NCBI RefSeq assembly: GCF_000421465.1
Contig: NZ_ATXB01000001.1
Coordinates: 2,263,001-2,327,000, forward strand
Direction of reading: 5' to 3'
From: Methylohalobius crimeensis 10Ki
Lineage (GTDB): Bacteria; Pseudomonadota; Gammaproteobacteria; Methylococcales; Methylothermaceae
Length of the DNA: 64,000 nucleotides
In this document: positions 48,864 through 55,027 of the stretch, one piece after another
How the letters are laid out: each line of letters opens with the position of its first letter
How positions within the stretch are numbered: the stretch's first letter is position 1
Position numbers and translations under genes: made by a program
The notes under the pieces: model-generated
Database searches by the model: none
What the model was told of the DNA's origin: nothing
Seen by the model: only the letters and a program-made list of their open reading frames with translations

Positions 48864-48884
48864 CAGGGTGCCTGAGTGTCCCAC

Positions 48885-48975
48885 GGGCATTAAAAAAGCC
48901 CTACGCTTTCACGTAAGGCTTTGATAGTACTGGCACCCCGGATAGGATTCGAACCTATGACCTTCCCCTTAGGAG
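48885..48975. repeat. Left attachment repeat (displaced tRNA-Arg 3' half and terminator)
   Basis: 91 bases identical to 54905-54995. It carries a tRNA terminator hairpin (48892-48922), then the CCA end, acceptor, T arm and part of the anticodon arm of tRNA-Arg(CCT), from 48931. After 48975 the sequence departs from the tRNA, so this half copy cannot make a tRNA. Weaker similarity continues on the outer side (TGAGTGTCCCA versus TGAGTGTGCCA). Confidence 0.92.
48892..48922 (-). terminator. Intrinsic terminator (left copy of tRNA terminator)
   Basis: On the minus strand AAAGCCTTACG-TGAAAG-CGTAGGGCTTT followed by further T residues; 11 pairs with one G:U. In this displaced position it could still end transcripts entering from inside the element. 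Confidence 0.7.
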
Positions 48976-49093
48976 TGGGATACCGTCCAATTCCCACCAT
49001 TCACCACAACACAAGAATGAAGGATAAACAATAATTTATCCGATTGGTGGTATTGTCTTTTATCGTCGTATATCGCCCTATTTTGCGTGCAAG

Positions 49094-49111
49094 TGTGCCA
49101 TGAGTGTGCCA
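49094..49111 (+). repeat. Left copy of 18-bp terminal repeat (candidate integrase arm site)
   Basis: TGTGCCATGAGTGTGCCA, identical to 54886-54903. Each copy itself contains TGTGCCA twice. They lie inside the two ends of the element, as expected for arm-type integrase or excisionase sites. Confidence 0.6.
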
Positions 49112-49382
49112 CGGCACAGTTGGGTAAACCCATACCAATCAAGGCTTCCAGGGGTTTCGTGGTTGGGAATGCCGGTGCTTGGAGCATTCATTCCAAGAAC
49201 TGGGATGCTTGGGACACTTCGTTAAGGCTTTCGGAAGGCTTTCGGAAGATAGTTGTTACTGCGTAACGTGGGGGTGGCAATACGGATAGCGGAAAGCCGT
49301 AAGCTACTGATATTGAAGGTATTATTTCCTGAATGGGAATAATTATCGTTGGGGACCCTATGATGTAGGCTAGTCCGCGCGG

Positions 49383-49402
49383 CGCGCTACCAGCGCGGTT
49401 TT
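49383..49402 (+). terminator. Possible hairpin terminator
   Basis: CGCGCT-ACC-AGCGCG then GTTTT. Short GC-rich stem with four T residues; weak as a terminator. Confidence 0.3.
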
Positions 49403-49688
49403 CGGAAGTTTTTCAGCCCCCCATGGGACAGCAGCATATTAGCTTTTTCTAATAGTCTGGAATTGACTATCCACCAGGGCGGTAATGCCCTTGCTTATTC
49501 GGTCAAGGTGACGGGGCATCGGTGGTGGGTTTATCTGTCAACCGTTGATAGATAGTGAAGGGTTGGGGTGATGGCGGTTTCTTGGGGTAGCCCTACCCCC
49601 TGGGTGCCTTCGTTTCGCGGCTTATATCGGCTTACATGGCGTCGGTTTTGGCAGCAGGTGAGGGGCGGTTTTCATCATAGAAATGTCT

Positions 49689-49791
49689 GGCGACACTGGC
49701 GACACGGCGACACCACCCGCTGTATCCCGCATGGTTCTAGGGCTGAAGCCGAATTGGCCGATTGGCGACACGCTGGCGACAGTGGCGACAC
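49689..49791 (+). repeat. Left composite iteron site
   Basis: Six copies of octamer GGCGACAC on the plus strand, five perfect and one GGCGACAG, at 49689, 49698, 49706, 49764, 49775 (variant) and 49784. The two triplets are spaced 9 and 8, then 11 and 9 bases. Between them is a core (49719-49748) shared with the right site. It stands 59 bases past the 3' end of the helicase-primase gene. Confidence 0.85.
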
Positions 49792-49849
49792 CTTGGCGGC
49801 AGACATAAAAAAGGGGCCGAAGCCCCCTGAAGCGGTGCGGTGTGCAAGA

Positions 49850-51973
49850 CTATTTACCCGACAGTTTAGGATGGACGCGGTACACCATGCCGGGCTGGTC
49901 CCGTTCGGGCGGGGCTAGCCGCAGCCATCCAAGTTCGCACAGCCAAGCCAGCAAATCTCGCGCCTCGTCGCCCTTGGGCCGGGGCCTTGGGCCTTGACGC
50001 TGAAGCTGCCGGGCGGTGACGGTTTCCTTGCCGCTTTGCCGAAGCCAGTCCACCACAGCACGGGCGCGCCGGGCGTCGTCGGTGCCTTGGGCCATTCCCA
50101 ACATGCGCTTTGCCTCGGTCAGGTGCCAGTGGCCTAACACTTCCGCGCGGTCCCACGTGCCCAATGAAACGTAGCTGTATTCCGCTTTCAGCGCGTCCGG
50201 GTTCTCCAGGACGCTGAAAAGTCCGGCCAGCTTGACGACCTGGCTTGTGAACTTGCTTGCCACGTCCCTGTAGTCCGCAAACGCGCCACCGTCCCGCATT
50301 TCAATTTCAATCGCGTTGTGCAATTCCCGCCGGGCTTCCTGGGCTTCGGTGCCTAGTCGGATAACATGGGGTTCCGTGCCAAGTTCAACGTCCAAGGCGG
50401 CGCGTACCACGTCGAAGAATGGTTCCAGCTTTGTTTCATCGAGGCCGGCATCGTCGGGGCTTTCCAGGCGGTAGCCCACAAGGCTTGGAAGCCCTACCGG
50501 CCATATCCGAGCCAGCAGCCCGCTCCCGCGCATGGTGGGATGCTTGGCAAGCTGCGCCCACTTATCCGGTTGAAGGTAGCAACAAACATTCAGCGCTGGG
50601 TGGGGAATTACCCTTTCGTCTGGCATGTCGCCGGGGCCTATCCTATCTCGCGAAATGCTGTCGCCTGAAATCCCTTCCAGGAATATCGATTCAGCCGTCC
50701 CGCCGTTTTCATAGCGGCCAAGAATGTTATTCACGACGGTTCGACCTTCGCCGGACATGACGGCAAAAGCCCCGTCCCGGTCGTGCATCAATTGAAATAG
50801 GCGTTCGGGCGTCGTGTCGGATGTCCACAGCCTGGGGGCCGGTGGCGGCTTCTTCCGCTGCGCTTCAATGTCCGCCAGGTCGCGCGCCAGAACGTCCACC
50901 CCAAGTCTCTCCTTTTTTGCGTCCCGTCGGGTTTGGGCCGCAAGGTCATCTAAGGCGGCATTGTGGGCGGCCACCCGCGCCAGCTCGGCCTCCCGGCCCG
51001 GCCGCTTCGCTTCCTGCCATTCCAAGACGGGTTGTTCCAAAGCCTTGAATACCGGCGACTTCCGTTCGCCGCTTCCAGCCACCAGCACCACAAAGAGCGT
51101 TGGAAAATGTCGCAAGCCCCGCTTTTCCTGAACGATGACAGCCTTCCGTAACGCGGCGGCGAGCATACCCAGGGCAACGGTGCCCGGTGCGGATACGGGG
51201 ACGTAGGCGCTGGCTTCGAGTTCCTGGGCGGCCACCCGCAGCCGTTCCGGCAACATTTCCACGGGGTATCGTTCCGGTTCGCTTCCGTCGCTCGGTAGGG
51301 GGCATGGTTCCGTCCATTCCGACAGGGCAGTAACGGTTGAATGTGTGACGCTTTCAAACCATTCCTTCGGCGGCGCTTCCAGGACTTTCTTGACGGCAGC
51401 GAAAACCACTTCCCGCAGCGTTTCCACGTCCGCCTCATCGATGGGTGAAAAGCCGTCCCAGCCGTCATACCGGGCTTGGATGAAGTCCACCACGTCCCCG
51501 CCTTCAGGCAGGCCGGGCAACCGGGCAAGCTGTATCTTTGGTGGCTTGTCTAAGCCGCTCAGCGCCTTGCAAACGTCCCTTGCATAGCCTTCCCCCGGTT
51601 CGTTCGCGTCAGGTAGAATGATGACACGTCCGGCATTCCGAAGCGGCTTCCAGTCGGCCTTGGCGGCGGCCTGGCTTCCACCTTGCGAAGTCACGCATGG
51701 CAGCCCCAAGGAATGCAACGCGGCGGCGGCTTTTTCGCCTTCGGAAACGAAAGTCGTCTTGCCAGGGCGTATCGTGTCCAGTCCGTACAAAGGCCGGGGG
51801 GTGGGTAGCCCCCCCGGTTTCCAGACTTGGCCGTTGGGCTTGAAGAACGGAACGACATGCTTCCCGTCCTGGCCGTCATACCGCGCCACAATTCCCAGCG
51901 TCCGGCCGTCCTGGATGTAGCACCAGGCATAGCGAAACCGCTTTCCTTCGTATGTTTGGGGTATCCCGTCCAT
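49850..51973 (-). CDS. TOPRIM/DUF3987 replication protein (helicase-primase-like)
   Basis: 707 residues from ATG 51973, which is six bases after AAGGGG; an alternative GTG at 51979 has no spacing for a ribosome site. Residues about 75-150 form a TOPRIM-like domain (FVSEGEKAAAALHSLG, VIILPDANEPGEGYA). Residues about 230-600 match DUF3987 proteins (GSGERKSPVFKALEQP, RLFQLMHDRDGAFAVMSGEG, GDMPDERVIPHP), a helicase-like fold common in phage and mobile-element replication. The C-terminus looks like a winged-helix domain (DDARRARAVVDWLRQSGK). Coupled by overlap to the CHC2 gene, so the pair may form one split primase. Confidence 0.85.
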   Translation of the reverse strand: MDGIPQTYEGKRFRYAWCYIQDGRTLGIVARYDGQDGKHVVPFFKPNGQVWKPGGLPTPRPLYGLDTIRPGKTTFVSEGEKAAAALHSLGLPCVTSQGGSQAAAKADWKPLRNAGRVIILPDANEPGEGYARDVCKALSGLDKPPKIQLARLPGLPEGGDVVDFIQARYDGWDGFSPIDEADVETLREVVFAAVKKVLEAPPKEWFESVTHSTVTALSEWTEPCPLPSDGSEPERYPVEMLPERLRVAAQELEASAYVPVSAPGTVALGMLAAALRKAVIVQEKRGLRHFPTLFVVLVAGSGERKSPVFKALEQPVLEWQEAKRPGREAELARVAAHNAALDDLAAQTRRDAKKERLGVDVLARDLADIEAQRKKPPPAPRLWTSDTTPERLFQLMHDRDGAFAVMSGEGRTVVNNILGRYENGGTAESIFLEGISGDSISRDRIGPGDMPDERVIPHPALNVCCYLQPDKWAQLAKHPTMRGSGLLARIWPVGLPSLVGYRLESPDDAGLDETKLEPFFDVVRAALDVELGTEPHVIRLGTEAQEARRELHNAIEIEMRDGGAFADYRDVASKFTSQVVKLAGLFSVLENPDALKAEYSYVSLGTWDRAEVLGHWHLTEAKRMLGMAQGTDDARRARAVVDWLRQSGKETVTARQLQRQGPRPRPKGDEARDLLAWLCELGWLRLAPPERDQPGMVYRVHPKLSGK

Positions 51974-51975
51974 AG

Positions 51976-52263
51976 TCACCCCCTTCCCGCTAGAATTTTG
52001 GCCGCGTCCAGGGGCTGGATGCGGTGGAATTGGGCGACAAAGCTTATCGTGTCACCACCCGAAGCCCCGCAACTGAAGCACTTATACCCACCCGTACGTA
52101 GGTTCACCCGAAAGCTTCCCCGTCGGTTGTCGTCGTGGAACGGGCATAGTCCGCCGTCAGTCCAGCCATGGGTGTTTGGCCTTCGCTTCATTTCGGGCAG
52201 ATACCGAGCATAAACGTGTTCGGGCGGCACGTGGCGGCGGGCCAAATCGAATACATGTTTCAT
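51976..52263 (-). CDS. CHC2 zinc-finger protein, primase N-terminal half
   Basis: 95 residues from ATG 52263, which overlaps the upstream stop (ATGA). The zinc finger is LCPFHDDNRRGSFRVNLRTG then YKCFSCGASGGDTISFV, with C-x2-H and C-x2-C ligands as in DnaG-type primases. It ends with IQPLDAAKILAG. In DnaG this finger is in the same chain as TOPRIM; here the two are in neighbouring overlapping genes. Confidence 0.85.
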   Translation of the reverse strand: MKHVFDLARRHVPPEHVYARYLPEMKRRPNTHGWTDGGLCPFHDDNRRGSFRVNLRTGGYKCFSCGASGGDTISFVAQFHRIQPLDAAKILAGRG

Positions 52264-52622
52264 GCGCGCCACCCCCAAAGCCCCAAGCTTCGCGCCGAAA
52301 ATTCCTGCCCGCGCGTCCCGGCCATGGTGATAGCCCATCCAGGCAATCTGTATCGGGCAACTGGGCGGTGACGTTCAGACGGCGCGTTTGCGGTAGGAAA
52401 TGCCACGTCGTCAATCGTTTCTATCGGCCAAGCCATGCCGCGCAATCGGTGCATTACGGCACCTAAGCGCCATGAACCCGTTGTCCGAATGAATGCGGGG
52501 CTATCCATAAGCCTACCAGTCAACAGGACTCCTAGCGCGAAGCCGTCCAAGGTAGCGGCGCTGGGGTATTGAAACGCCATGGGGGGCAAGTCGTCGCTTC
52601 CGTAAAGGGTTGCTTGGCTCAT
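52260..52622 (-). CDS. Hypothetical protein, winged-helix-like
   Basis: 120 residues from ATG 52622 after a G-rich ribosome site, overlapping the excisionase-like gene by four bases. The stretch STGSWRLGAVMHRLRGMAWPIETI and the following RPVARYRLPGW resemble a helix-turn-helix plus wing in mobile-element regulators. No enzymatic motif. The start is fixed by the ATGA overlap and the family assignment is tentative. Confidence 0.6.
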   Translation of the reverse strand: MSQATLYGSDDLPPMAFQYPSAATLDGFALGVLLTGRLMDSPAFIRTTGSWRLGAVMHRLRGMAWPIETIDDVAFPTANAPSERHRPVARYRLPGWAITMAGTRGQEFSARSLGLWGWRA

Positions 52623-52816
52623 TCCGCCCCCCCTTCCCGGCGGGCACATTCAAAAAATTTGGCTTCGTCCACCAACAGTTTTCTTCCGACTTTTACGAAC
52701 GCTGGGGCAAAGCCGTTTTTATCGCGGTAGAACGCCAGGTGGCGCAGTCCGCCGGTGCTCGGCCATGGATGAAATTCTTCCCATTTTGTTAGGGGGATAA
52801 GTCTTGTTTCAGGCAT
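52619..52816 (-). CDS. Excisionase/AlpA-like small DNA-binding protein
   Basis: 65 residues, MPETRLIPLTKWEEFHPWPS then GLRHLAFYRDKNGFAPAFVKVGRKLLVDEAKFFEC. The pattern of a helix followed by a wing carrying V-GRKLLVDE is that of MerR-like excisionases and AlpA regulators. It would direct excision or activate the replication genes. First gene of the coupled cassette. Confidence 0.75.
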   Translation of the reverse strand: MPETRLIPLTKWEEFHPWPSTGGLRHLAFYRDKNGFAPAFVKVGRKLLVDEAKFFECARREGGAE

Positions 52817-52878
52817 TGTTGTTTACCCACGTTTTCGTTAATGACGCGGGCAATGCTATTAGCCTGTTTCGGAAAATA

Positions 52879-52964
52879 AATTGGGGATAATTGGGGGGAA
52901 ATATATTCTCCTAATTTTGGGGCGCGGTGTATGCGGGCTTTGGCGGGATAAAAAATAATTGGGG
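52879..52964 (+). repeat. AATTGGGG direct repeats in AT-rich spacer
   Basis: Three perfect AATTGGGG copies (52879, 52889, 52957) and one with two extra T (52913) lie in the 166-base AT-rich spacer between the unknown gene and the excisionase-like gene. They are candidate operator sites for the cassette promoter or an AT-rich unwinding region. Confidence 0.5.
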
Positions 52965-52982
52965 AAAGTGGTTTTCCATTAA

Positions 52983-53537
52983 TTATAAGTTTTTGCGCGG
53001 GCGTCCTGCTTTCTTTTTGAATCGGGGGTGGCGCTTAATTAATTCCTTCCAAAATTCCGTGAATTGTTCGAAGGTGTCTTCTTCGAAAGCGTCATTATCG
53101 AATTGAAGCTTTTCGAATATTTCTTCGCGCGTCATTTTCTGTAAGCCGGGGGGTTTTCTTCCAGCCCACAAAAGAAAGGCTGCTTCCCTATCTTTATAGC
53201 CAGGCGTTTCCGTCCCAGCTATCAGCCATTTGAAAAGCTGGGTATCCGGCGGCGGCATTGCGTCGTGGTTTTTCAGGAATGCCCGAAGCGTTTCCCGCCC
53301 AATGTAGAATGCCCCACCAAGCTTAACGTGCTCCCAGCCTGGGCGTGCCATTCGGCGGGGTTCGATGACGCGGGAAGGCCTCAGCGCGCCACGCTTGCAG
53401 GCGATTTCCAGCGTCCGCTGGAAGTCGAAGCGGGCTTTGTCGTTATCGCCGTGCCATAGGCGGGCGGCTTCGTAGGGCGTCAGTTCGTCCCGTTCGAGCA
53501 GGGGAATGAAATCGCTTTCGAAGTCTGAAAGTGCCAT
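52983..53537 (-). CDS. Hypothetical protein with basic GRPR-type tail
   Basis: 184 residues, unknown family. N-terminus MALSDFESDFIPLLERDELT is followed by a helical, charged body. The C-terminus PRFKKKAGRPRKNL is a basic tail of AT-hook style (GRPRK). It lies between the right composite iteron site, 22 bases upstream of its ATG, and the AT-rich repeats. DNA binding is a guess from the tail and place; it could be the initiator accessory protein or cargo. Confidence 0.6.
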   Translation of the reverse strand: MALSDFESDFIPLLERDELTPYEAARLWHGDNDKARFDFQRTLEIACKRGALRPSRVIEPRRMARPGWEHVKLGGAFYIGRETLRAFLKNHDAMPPPDTQLFKWLIAGTETPGYKDREAAFLLWAGRKPPGLQKMTREEIFEKLQFDNDAFEEDTFEQFTEFWKELIKRHPRFKKKAGRPRKNL

Positions 53538-53559
53538 AAAAAACCTTACTGATTATGTG

Positions 53560-53661
53560 GTGTCGCCAGTGTCGCCACGGTGTCGCCAAACTGGAAAAAC
53601 GCTGTAGGCCGCATGGTTCCTAGCGTTGAAGGGTATGTGTCGCCATGTCGCCAGTGTCGCC
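53560..53661 (-). repeat. Right composite iteron site
   Basis: Six GGCGACAC octamers read on the minus strand: five perfect and one GGCGACAT, with plus-strand starts at 53560, 53569, 53580, 53637, 53645 (variant) and 53654. In iteron direction the spacings are 9, 8, 57, 11 and 9, almost the same as the left site (9, 8, 58, 11, 9). The core at 53601-53631 matches the left core in plus-strand orientation. Confidence 0.85.
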
Positions 53662-53668
53662 ACGTATT

Positions 53669-54745
53669 TCAGAATACTTTTTGCGCCATGTCTTCCAGCA
53701 CCCCGCGAAGGTGGGTTTCGCTCAGGTGCGAATATCGATAGGTCATTTGCAGGGTCCTATGCCCAAGGATTTCAGCCACGTCCCTGAGGCTTGCCCCCTG
53801 CATAACGAGATAGCTGGCGCATGAATGCCGCAAGTCATGAAAACGGAAGTTGTCTATTTCCGCCCTTTGCAAGGCGCTTGCCCATGCCCGTTTAATGTCC
53901 ATGGGTTTGGTGGGCGGTTCGTCCGGCTTCGTAGGTCTACCGGGAAACAATAGTTCGGTATCCAGCCGCCGCACCTTGGAATGTCCCTTCAACGCTTCCA
54001 GGGCAGCCCCCACCAATGGCACCCGGCGACGTTCCCTGTTCTTCGTCTCATTCAACAGAATGAAACCACCATGTAAGCTCACGTCCGCCCATGTCAGGTT
54101 AAGAATTTCTGACTTCCGCATACCCGTAGAAAACCCCAACAAAACTATGGGGTACAGATAGCGGTTGGTTGACTGTTTGCAGGCTTCCAGCAGGCGGGCG
54201 CGTTCGTCGTCGTCCAGAAACCGCACCCGGCCATTATCGACACGGGGTTTCTTCACCTTCCGACACGGGTTTTCTTCCAGCCAGCCCCATTCATTGGCTG
54301 CCAGGGTAAAAGCAGCCGATAGGCAATTCATGGCTTTGACGACGGTGGCCGGTGCCCGCTTAGTACCTCTGGCGCATGGTTCATTCAGCAGGGCGTCTTT
54401 GCCTTCCGCGACAACGGCGGCGGTTACGTCACACAACAGCAGATAACCGTACCTATCCTTCCACCAGTCCAAGGCATGGGCGGCATTCGCTTGGTGCTTG
54501 GGTTTCTGGTTGGGTAGAACGTCCCGTTTGTATCTGTCTATTAGTTCGGAAAGTGTATGCTTCCTTGCTTCGGCGGTTTTGAAGTGACGGCCTTCACGTA
54601 TGGCCGCTTCGGTGGCTTGCGCCCATTTTTTGGCGTCGGTCTTGCGGTCGAAAGTGGCGGTTTGGGGGGGGTAGCCTTTCAGGCGGATTTGAACGTGGTA
54701 TGAAACCTGCCCATCGGATGTGTTACGCTTTCGAATTGAAGCCAT
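53669..54745 (-). CDS. int: Tyrosine recombinase/integrase
   Basis: 358 residues, ATG 54745 preceded by GAGGG. N-terminal SAM-like core-binding region (TLSELIDRYKRDVLPNQ) and catalytic domain: Arg in GFSTGMRKSEILNLTW, HxxR in FHDLRHSCASYLVMQG, and His/Tyr in ILGHRTLQMTYRYSHLSE. It lies beside the intact tRNA, as integrases usually do next to the reconstituted target. It would insert and excise the element by recombination at the 91-bp repeats. Confidence 0.93.
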   Translation of the reverse strand: MASIRKRNTSDGQVSYHVQIRLKGYPPQTATFDRKTDAKKWAQATEAAIREGRHFKTAEARKHTLSELIDRYKRDVLPNQKPKHQANAAHALDWWKDRYGYLLLCDVTAAVVAEGKDALLNEPCARGTKRAPATVVKAMNCLSAAFTLAANEWGWLEENPCRKVKKPRVDNGRVRFLDDDERARLLEACKQSTNRYLYPIVLLGFSTGMRKSEILNLTWADVSLHGGFILLNETKNRERRRVPLVGAALEALKGHSKVRRLDTELLFPGRPTKPDEPPTKPMDIKRAWASALQRAEIDNFRFHDLRHSCASYLVMQGASLRDVAEILGHRTLQMTYRYSHLSETHLRGVLEDMAQKVF

Positions 54746-54885
54746 GCCGATACCCTCATTATCGGTGTGGTGGATATGCCCGGTTGGTGTTGCCGCACCT
54801 TCCGGGTTTTTTGTTTCTGATAGCTTACCACAAACCGCTGAACGTCACGATACAAGACGGTTCAAGGGGTATCTTTTTTTTCAAC

Positions 54886-54903
54886 TGTGCCATGAGTGTG
54901 CCA
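54886..54903 (+). repeat. Right copy of 18-bp terminal repeat
   Basis: TGTGCCATGAGTGTGCCA, identical to 49094-49111, directly adjoining the right attachment repeat. Same likely role. Confidence 0.6.
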
Positions 54904-54904
54904 T

Positions 54905-54995
54905 GGGCATTAAAAAAGCCCTACGCTTTCACGTAAGGCTTTGATAGTACTGGCACCCCGGATAGGATTCGAACCTATGACCTTCCCCTTAGGAG
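54905..54995. repeat. Right attachment repeat (within intact tRNA-Arg)
   Basis: 91 bases identical to 48885-48975, covering the tRNA terminator, CCA end, T arm and anticodon arm up to 54995. The tRNA continues beyond as an intact gene. Confidence 0.92.
54912..54942 (-). terminator. tRNA-Arg terminator
   Basis: AAAGCCTTACG-TGAAAG-CGTAGGGCTTT with a run of six T on the minus strand, 8 bases past the CCA end of the tRNA. Strong intrinsic terminator. Confidence 0.85.
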
Positions 54996-55027
54996 GGGGA
55001 CGCTCTATCCAGCTGAGCTACCGGGGC
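54951..55027 (-). tRNA. tRNA-Arg (anticodon CCT)
   Basis: 77 bases with encoded CCA. Acceptor GCCCCGG pairs with CCGGGGT, the D arm is GCTC/GAGC, the anticodon loop is CTCCTAA (anticodon CCT), and the T arm ATAGG-TTCGAAT-CCTAT is canonical. Integration site of the element; its 3' half is duplicated at the left end. Confidence 0.97.

Follow-up and report, generated by a model that had tools for sequence, protein, structure and literature searches.

Two mirrored iteron sites in a Methylohalobius crimeensis mobile element as predicted targets of the C-terminal winged helix of its DUF3987 helicase

We analysed a 64,000-nucleotide stretch of the Methylohalobius crimeensis 10Ki genome (the window; contig NZ_ATXB01000001.1, positions 2,263,001 to 2,327,000), which contains E1, a mobile element inserted at tRNA-Arg(CCT) with a spacing of 6,020 bp between 108-nt direct repeats that are 97% identical. 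E1 carries two iteron sites, and it is likely that their GGCGACAC repeats are bound by the winged helix at the C-terminus of the DUF3987 (YfjI-type) helicase that E1 itself encodes; after excision this helicase would act as a self-recruiting replication initiator. The arrays, their position, their conservation in a second element of the same genome (E2) and a residue-to-base covariation are read from the sequences; binding, origin activity, looping and autoregulation are what we infer from them.

Each site consists of six octamers arranged as two triplets. The left-site octamers start at 49689, 49698 and 49706 and then at 49764, 49775 (the variant GGCGACAG) and 49784, giving steps of 9, 8 | 58 | 11, 9; read on its own strand, the right site has steps of 9, 8 | 57 | 11, 9 and also one variant (GGCGACAT). 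Exact GGCGACAC occurs 12 times in the whole window against 2.5 expected (standard deviation 1.3; none of the shuffles reached 12), and 10 of the 12 copies lie inside the two sites. Within the 6-kb element the top cluster of any one exact octamer per 110 bp holds six copies, compared with at most three in 300 first-order shuffles. A chance origin of the repeats was rejected on the basis of the shuffles and the presence of the same sites in E2, and the first-pass annotation of the sequence, which had described six octamers per site in spaced, mirrored triplets, is exact in its positions and above shuffle expectation. Aligned on the plus strand, the left and right spacer cores give a score of 42 that was reached in 0 of 5000 shuffles, whereas the inverted alignment has p=0.98; the iterons are therefore inverted and the core is not, again as first described. 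The left site lies 59 bp beyond the stop codon of the DUF3987 gene. The right site, 3.9 kb away, lies 23–124 bp upstream of 53537, the start of the first gene in the co-oriented rep block. Together they enclose 49850–53537, which bears out the observation that they exactly bracket the helicase-primase cassette and a gene of unassigned function.

E2 is located at tRNA-Lys (L005:5290-11300; G000:C1:817290-823300), has the same gene order as E1 and is ~84% identical to it over the shared stretch, with protein identities of 86–95% except for the integrase, the most diverged at 68%. In E2 the right site comprises six repeats spaced as in E1 (steps of 9, 8 | 57 | 11, 9), and the left site has five clear copies and one decayed. 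In all 11 recognisable repeats GGCGAC is replaced by TGCTAC (bases 1 and 4 changed), and 11 copies altered alike at two bases suggest a reader protein that changed along with the repeats. E2 also keeps the spacer core and its same-strand orientation, the match between its left and right cores being weaker (p=0.004) and the inverted alignment scoring nearly as high.

The DUF3987 proteins of E1 and E2 are identical across residues 559–660 and diverge abruptly from residue 661, inside the predicted winged helix, with the changes R661Q, Q662F, R665S and eight more up to residue 687; the coding DNA is 98–100% identical before residue 661 and 65% identical after it. An AlphaFold2 (AF2) model of the C-terminus built with 29 relatives is a winged helix with a predicted local distance difference test (pLDDT) score of 90.9, in which residues 657 and 661 are on helix 2, four residues apart, and residue 665 is in the following loop. 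A whole-protein model from two rows had a pLDDT of 34 and was not used. Foldseek comparison of the C-terminus with the PDB returned generic winged helices alone, none with E below 0.001, and sequence searches of the PDB gave no match.

For a wider comparison, DUF3987 relatives of 25–40% identity were gathered from viral contigs, genome contigs, whole genomes and plasmids; they were recovered by profile searches, while single-protein scans of viral contigs and the first scan of genome contigs gave none. Arrays beside DUF3987 genes of other elements, a check put forward in the first-pass annotation, are present and enriched 3' of the gene: 14 phased arrays are found in the 52 kb within 900 bp 3' of a DUF3987 stop codon against 11 in 713 kb elsewhere (a ~20-fold difference in density), and two of these 11 are the right sites of E1 and E2. 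With one mismatch allowed, 20 of about 60 loci exceed all 40 shuffles. Such DUF3987-linked arrays also occur on plasmid-borne loci. A typical relative has two oppositely oriented triplets within ~100 bp, forming one compact origin-like site 3' of the helicase gene, and a distant mirror site was seen among the relatives in E1 and E2 only. Two candidates for a second site elsewhere were discarded: one on the viral contig L116 is an artefact of a tandem concatemer, whose 5,858-bp unit carries integrase and DUF3987 genes, and an extra TGCGACA triplet at L179 6699–6730 falls in an integrase-like reading frame and was excluded as a genuine second site. L098 has a second array of another motif (GGTGTAA) at stop+2103, ~2 kb past its DUF3987 gene.

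In a comparison with about 40 relatives, the sequence of the repeat covaries with that of the winged helix. Among the 31 loci scored at residue 661, all in the GP subfamily that includes E1 and E2, Arg661 goes with G at base 4 (GCGA) in 16/16 and Gln661 with T (GCTA) in 15/15, L096 among the latter carrying both kinds, with GCGAC copies too. Two Lys661 loci have GCGGC, a register that fits better than the GCCGC reading, which was dropped. When all columns of the last ~105 amino acids were scanned for mutual information (MI) with all repeat positions, R661–base 4 ranked first (z=19.7; MI=0.99, the full entropy of the base) and R657–base 6 second (z=8.4). On a tree of the ATPase region, from which the winged helix was left out, residue 661 has switched independently at least eight times on well-supported branches (11 in all), and the base has moved the same way in 8/8 (p=0.0078). 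A weaker claim can be made for residue 665 and base 1, where, in the small E1-like clade, loci with GPR have G and those with GPS have T. Because GC served as the anchor of the register and the GCGA and GCTA classes were set after the first loci had been seen, weight falls on a held-out test, for which the rule and the criteria were settled in advance: of the held-out loci whose array could be scored, 6/6 fit at 661 and at 657. By eye, L186, L194 (2/3 repeats), L221 and L189 fit too, L189 combining Ser657 and Arg661 with GCGAA, a combination that the initial loci lacked. At L188 there is no array, and six held-out loci belong to other repeat classes. These classes, found 3' of DUF3987 genes and outside the Arg/Gln rule, are GGCGCA (L202, L203, L213, L216, L207) and GAAGC (L205, L139).

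The left site is most likely an origin of the kind found in Staphylococcus aureus pathogenicity islands (SaPIs) and phage-inducible chromosomal islands (PICIs), read here by the DUF3987 protein. The right-site repeats switch in step, from which it follows that the same protein would also bind there. In the mechanism we propose, the integrase and an excisionase-like protein would release a 6-kb circle, and DUF3987 subunits would bind the left array, 3' of their own gene and at the usual origin position of the family. The helicase would then load, and the CHC2 and Toprim primase parts would prime synthesis. The right array, bound by the same protein, would provide the partner in opposite orientation, which in most relatives is found within ~100 bp, and may pair with the left site through looping, control the rep genes starting there, or both.

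Several observations weigh against this interpretation. The covarying positions map to helix 2 and the next loop and not to helix 3, with which winged-helix domains usually recognise DNA. The left spacer is ~58% GC, with the stretches richest in AT elsewhere, whereas PICI origins have an AT-rich stretch flanked by two iteron sets. Unlike those of most relatives, the triplets of E1 and E2 are direct within each site, and L098 and L143 have direct arrays for which a distant partner was not found. The array is not universal, as none was found downstream of the YfjI-type genes L121, L161, L162, L165, L223 and L224 (Escherichia coli and Citrobacter plasmid records, plus one further genome). To these must be added the choice of register and classes described above, the exceptions to the 657 rule (L096, L128 and partly L106) and the GGCGCA arrays of the L202 type, which would combine Arg657 with A at base 6 if the simplest register is right. 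The first-pass annotation had proposed replication-linked iterons with a two-site origin; the linkage is supported and the layout recurs in E2. The family norm is a single compact origin beyond the 3' end of the helicase gene, as described for SaPIs and PICIs (PMC6092414, PMC7581432).

How the two sites share the work allows more than one answer. It is quite possible, if short of probable, that they form a split origin in which both are required in cis for initiation. This is the arrangement in P4, where replication with the alpha protein needs ori and crr. In its favour are the mirror symmetry and the matched spacing, seen in E1 as in E2, and an opposite-orientation array that is 3.9 kb away here and within ~100 bp in most relatives; the direct arrays of L098 and L143 with no distant partner found speak against it. 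The likeness to P4 is drawn from layout and gene functions, namely two separated sites bearing short repeats, together with a helicase and a primase function, and in E1 the helicase and CHC2 primase are two proteins of another family than P4 alpha. The analogy to P4 raised in the first-pass annotation is borne out in part. Alternatively, and in our view more doubtfully, the left site would be the origin and the right site an operator alone, at which the initiator represses or tunes the rep promoter and sets copy number through handcuffing of the arrays. F and P1 plasmids likewise have iterons on both sides of rep, with possible pairing control; their initiators RepE and RepA are not helicases and their iterons are ~19 bp, while E1 has a predicted initiator of a helicase family and octamer repeats. 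The right site adjoins the first gene of the rep block and overlaps its sole upstream intergenic space, as it does in E2, and relatives apparently manage with one site. However, no sigma-70-like promoter was called at the right site in a scan limited to that promoter type, and a plain operator would not need to be a complete mirror copy that repeats the triplet spacing exactly and shares the core.

As to what reads the repeats, the first-pass annotation had named the 184-aa protein of unassigned function, a winged-helix-like protein and the helicase as candidates, and the covariation of the C-terminal winged helix of the DUF3987 protein favours the helicase. The gene for the 184-aa protein adjoins the right site, and protein and two-site layout are both found in E1 and E2 only; it is nonetheless very unlikely to be the iteron binder, since relatives with like repeats are without it and at every scored locus the repeat can be predicted from the C-terminus of the DUF3987 protein. 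No homologue was detected outside E1 and E2 in the searches made, with one relative, that of E2, among 301 genomes of the order. The 184-aa protein may bind the spacer core instead of the repeats. Least probable of all is that the repeats serve the excisionase-like protein, or serve as arm-type sites for the integrase, which has diverged most between the elements, as the repeats are ~0.7 and 1.2 kb from the attachment repeats and accompany the DUF3987 gene on plasmid-borne loci too, and a separate TGTGCC/TGTCCC pair beside both attachment sites switches on its own and fits better.

The features of E1 are collected in Table 1. Its genes are all on the minus strand, in the order integrase, 184-aa protein, 65-aa protein, 129-aa protein, CHC2 zinc finger and 709-aa DUF3987 protein. 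The Pfam and PHROG matches of the replication proteins are to DUF3987, CHC2 and phage DNA helicase/primase families; for the 709-aa protein they are DUF3987 (PF13148; E=7.7e-66) and the DNA helicase phrog_2373 (E=2.9e-50), the Toprim match being weak and below the cut-off. In an Rfam search the tRNA was the sole match. The paired short repeats beside the attachment sites read TGTGCC in E1 (window 49093–49111 and 54885–54903) and TGTCCC in E2 (L005 5459–5477 and 11156–11174), and are probably arm sites of the integrase whose switch was independent of that of the iterons. On the outer left flank of E1 (48876–48883) an E2-type GTGTCCCA adjoins the attachment repeat, perhaps a remnant of an earlier integration. 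Two non-coding stretches common to E1 (49352–49436 and 49585–49649) and E2 recur with 85–97% identity in a third part of the genome that carries an integrase (L017 6926–6991 and 7669–7720), possibly as a shared packaging or regulatory site.

Table 1. Features of E1, in window coordinates.
Feature	Position	Strand	Basis or remark
Left attachment repeat	48873..48980	+	108-nt direct repeat
Left iteron site (predicted origin), two direct triplets of GGCGACA(C/G), six repeats in all	49689..49791	+	3' of DUF3987 gene
Spacer core of left site (CGCTGTATCCCGCATGGTTCTAGGGCTGAAG)	49718..49748	+	conserved in E2
Terminator-like hairpin between DUF3987 gene and left site	49811..49828	-	matches of this kind occur at chance rate; segment absent from E2
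Toprim-like region and DUF3987 helicase, 709 aa, predicted initiator	49850..51979	-	Pfam and PHROG
C-terminal winged helix, residues 634–709, predicted iteron reader	49853..50080	-	AF2 pLDDT 90.9; covariation
Codon of Arg665 (Ser in E2), candidate base 1 contact	49985..49987	-	E1-like clade comparison
Codon of Arg661 (Gln in E2), covaries with octamer base 4	49997..49999	-	covariation
Codon of Arg657, covaries with octamer base 6	50009..50011	-	covariation
CHC2 zinc-finger (DnaG-type) primase piece, 120 aa	51976..52338	-	Pfam Zn_ribbon_DnaG E=1.5e-12
Conserved 129-aa open reading frame, no function assigned	52260..52649	-	92% identical in E2
65-aa excisionase/AlpA-like protein, weak match	52619..52816	-	phrog_629 E=0.009
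184-aa protein, function not assigned	52983..53537	-	homologue seen in E2 only
Right iteron site, mirror-image six repeats, directly upstream of 184-aa gene	53560..53661	-	candidate second origin half and/or operator
Spacer core of right site	53600..53631	+	same orientation as left core
Tyrosine integrase	53669..54745	-	Phage_integrase E=3.6e-36
Right attachment repeat	54893..55000	+	overlaps 3' half of tRNA-Arg(CCT), 54951–55027

SaPI Rep helicases read iterons directly downstream of their own gene via a C-terminal domain (PMC7581432, PMC6092414). E1 shares with SaPIs and PICIs an initiator helicase with a C-terminal DNA-binding domain (predicted in E1), iterons directly 3' of the helicase gene and two iteron sets; it differs in using the DUF3987 family and not the SaPI/PICI Rep families, in the base composition of its spacer and in having its second, mirror site at a distance. 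A residue-to-base relation was not found described in the SaPI/PICI literature (PMC6092414, PMC7581432). The phage-inducible chromosomal minimalist island (PICMI) satellites of Vibrionaceae (PMC10803314) are ~6 kb in length with an integrase, a DUF3987 replication protein and a few small genes, and E1 resembles them in all of these respects. However, E1 and E2 are at tRNA-Arg and tRNA-Lys where PICMIs are next to fis, the 65-aa protein of E1 has no Pfam match to AlpA (PF05930/PF12728) and only the phrog_629 hit, and iterons are unmentioned in PMC10803314. Concatemers have been reported for PICMI satellites, like the L116 contig. The size and genes of E1 and the concatemeric viral contig of its relative are compatible with a satellite life style. 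The first-pass annotation had suggested a new replicon type; E1 is instead a two-site variant of the DUF3987/YfjI replicon, having the DUF3987 ATPase, phased repeats 3' of its gene (a replicon feature that we propose here) and a winged helix that predicts the repeats.

Genes of the DUF3987/YfjI type occur commonly in satellites, in small integrative elements and in some plasmids, and we found no description of their origins in the literature searched. The rule that emerges for DUF3987 origins is to look 3' of the gene, where the repeat should be predictable from three residues; with single helicase residues predicting single repeat letters, the origins of such elements would be readable from protein sequence. 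Going further, we give an even chance to DUF3987/YfjI initiators having a modular code spread over helix 2 and the loop that follows it (657–base 6, 661–base 4 and 665–base 1), such that one or two residues and a concerted change of the repeats switch origin specificity and hence the compatibility of co-resident elements. E1 and E2, whose codes would be orthogonal and whose two-site origin would be split, would then be an example. A hint of incompatibility-driven change comes from elements that live together and differ in their repeats (E1/E2, L099/L106, L128/L143 and L139/L213), set beside one pair that shares its core repeat (L151/L156), the pairs being too few for a test. If the code is true, R661Q with R665S in the E1 helicase would move its preference from GGCGACAC to TGCTACAC. 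Nearly identical, yet differing in their repeats within a single cell, E1 and E2 offer a natural test system for how an initiator and all of its sites change together.

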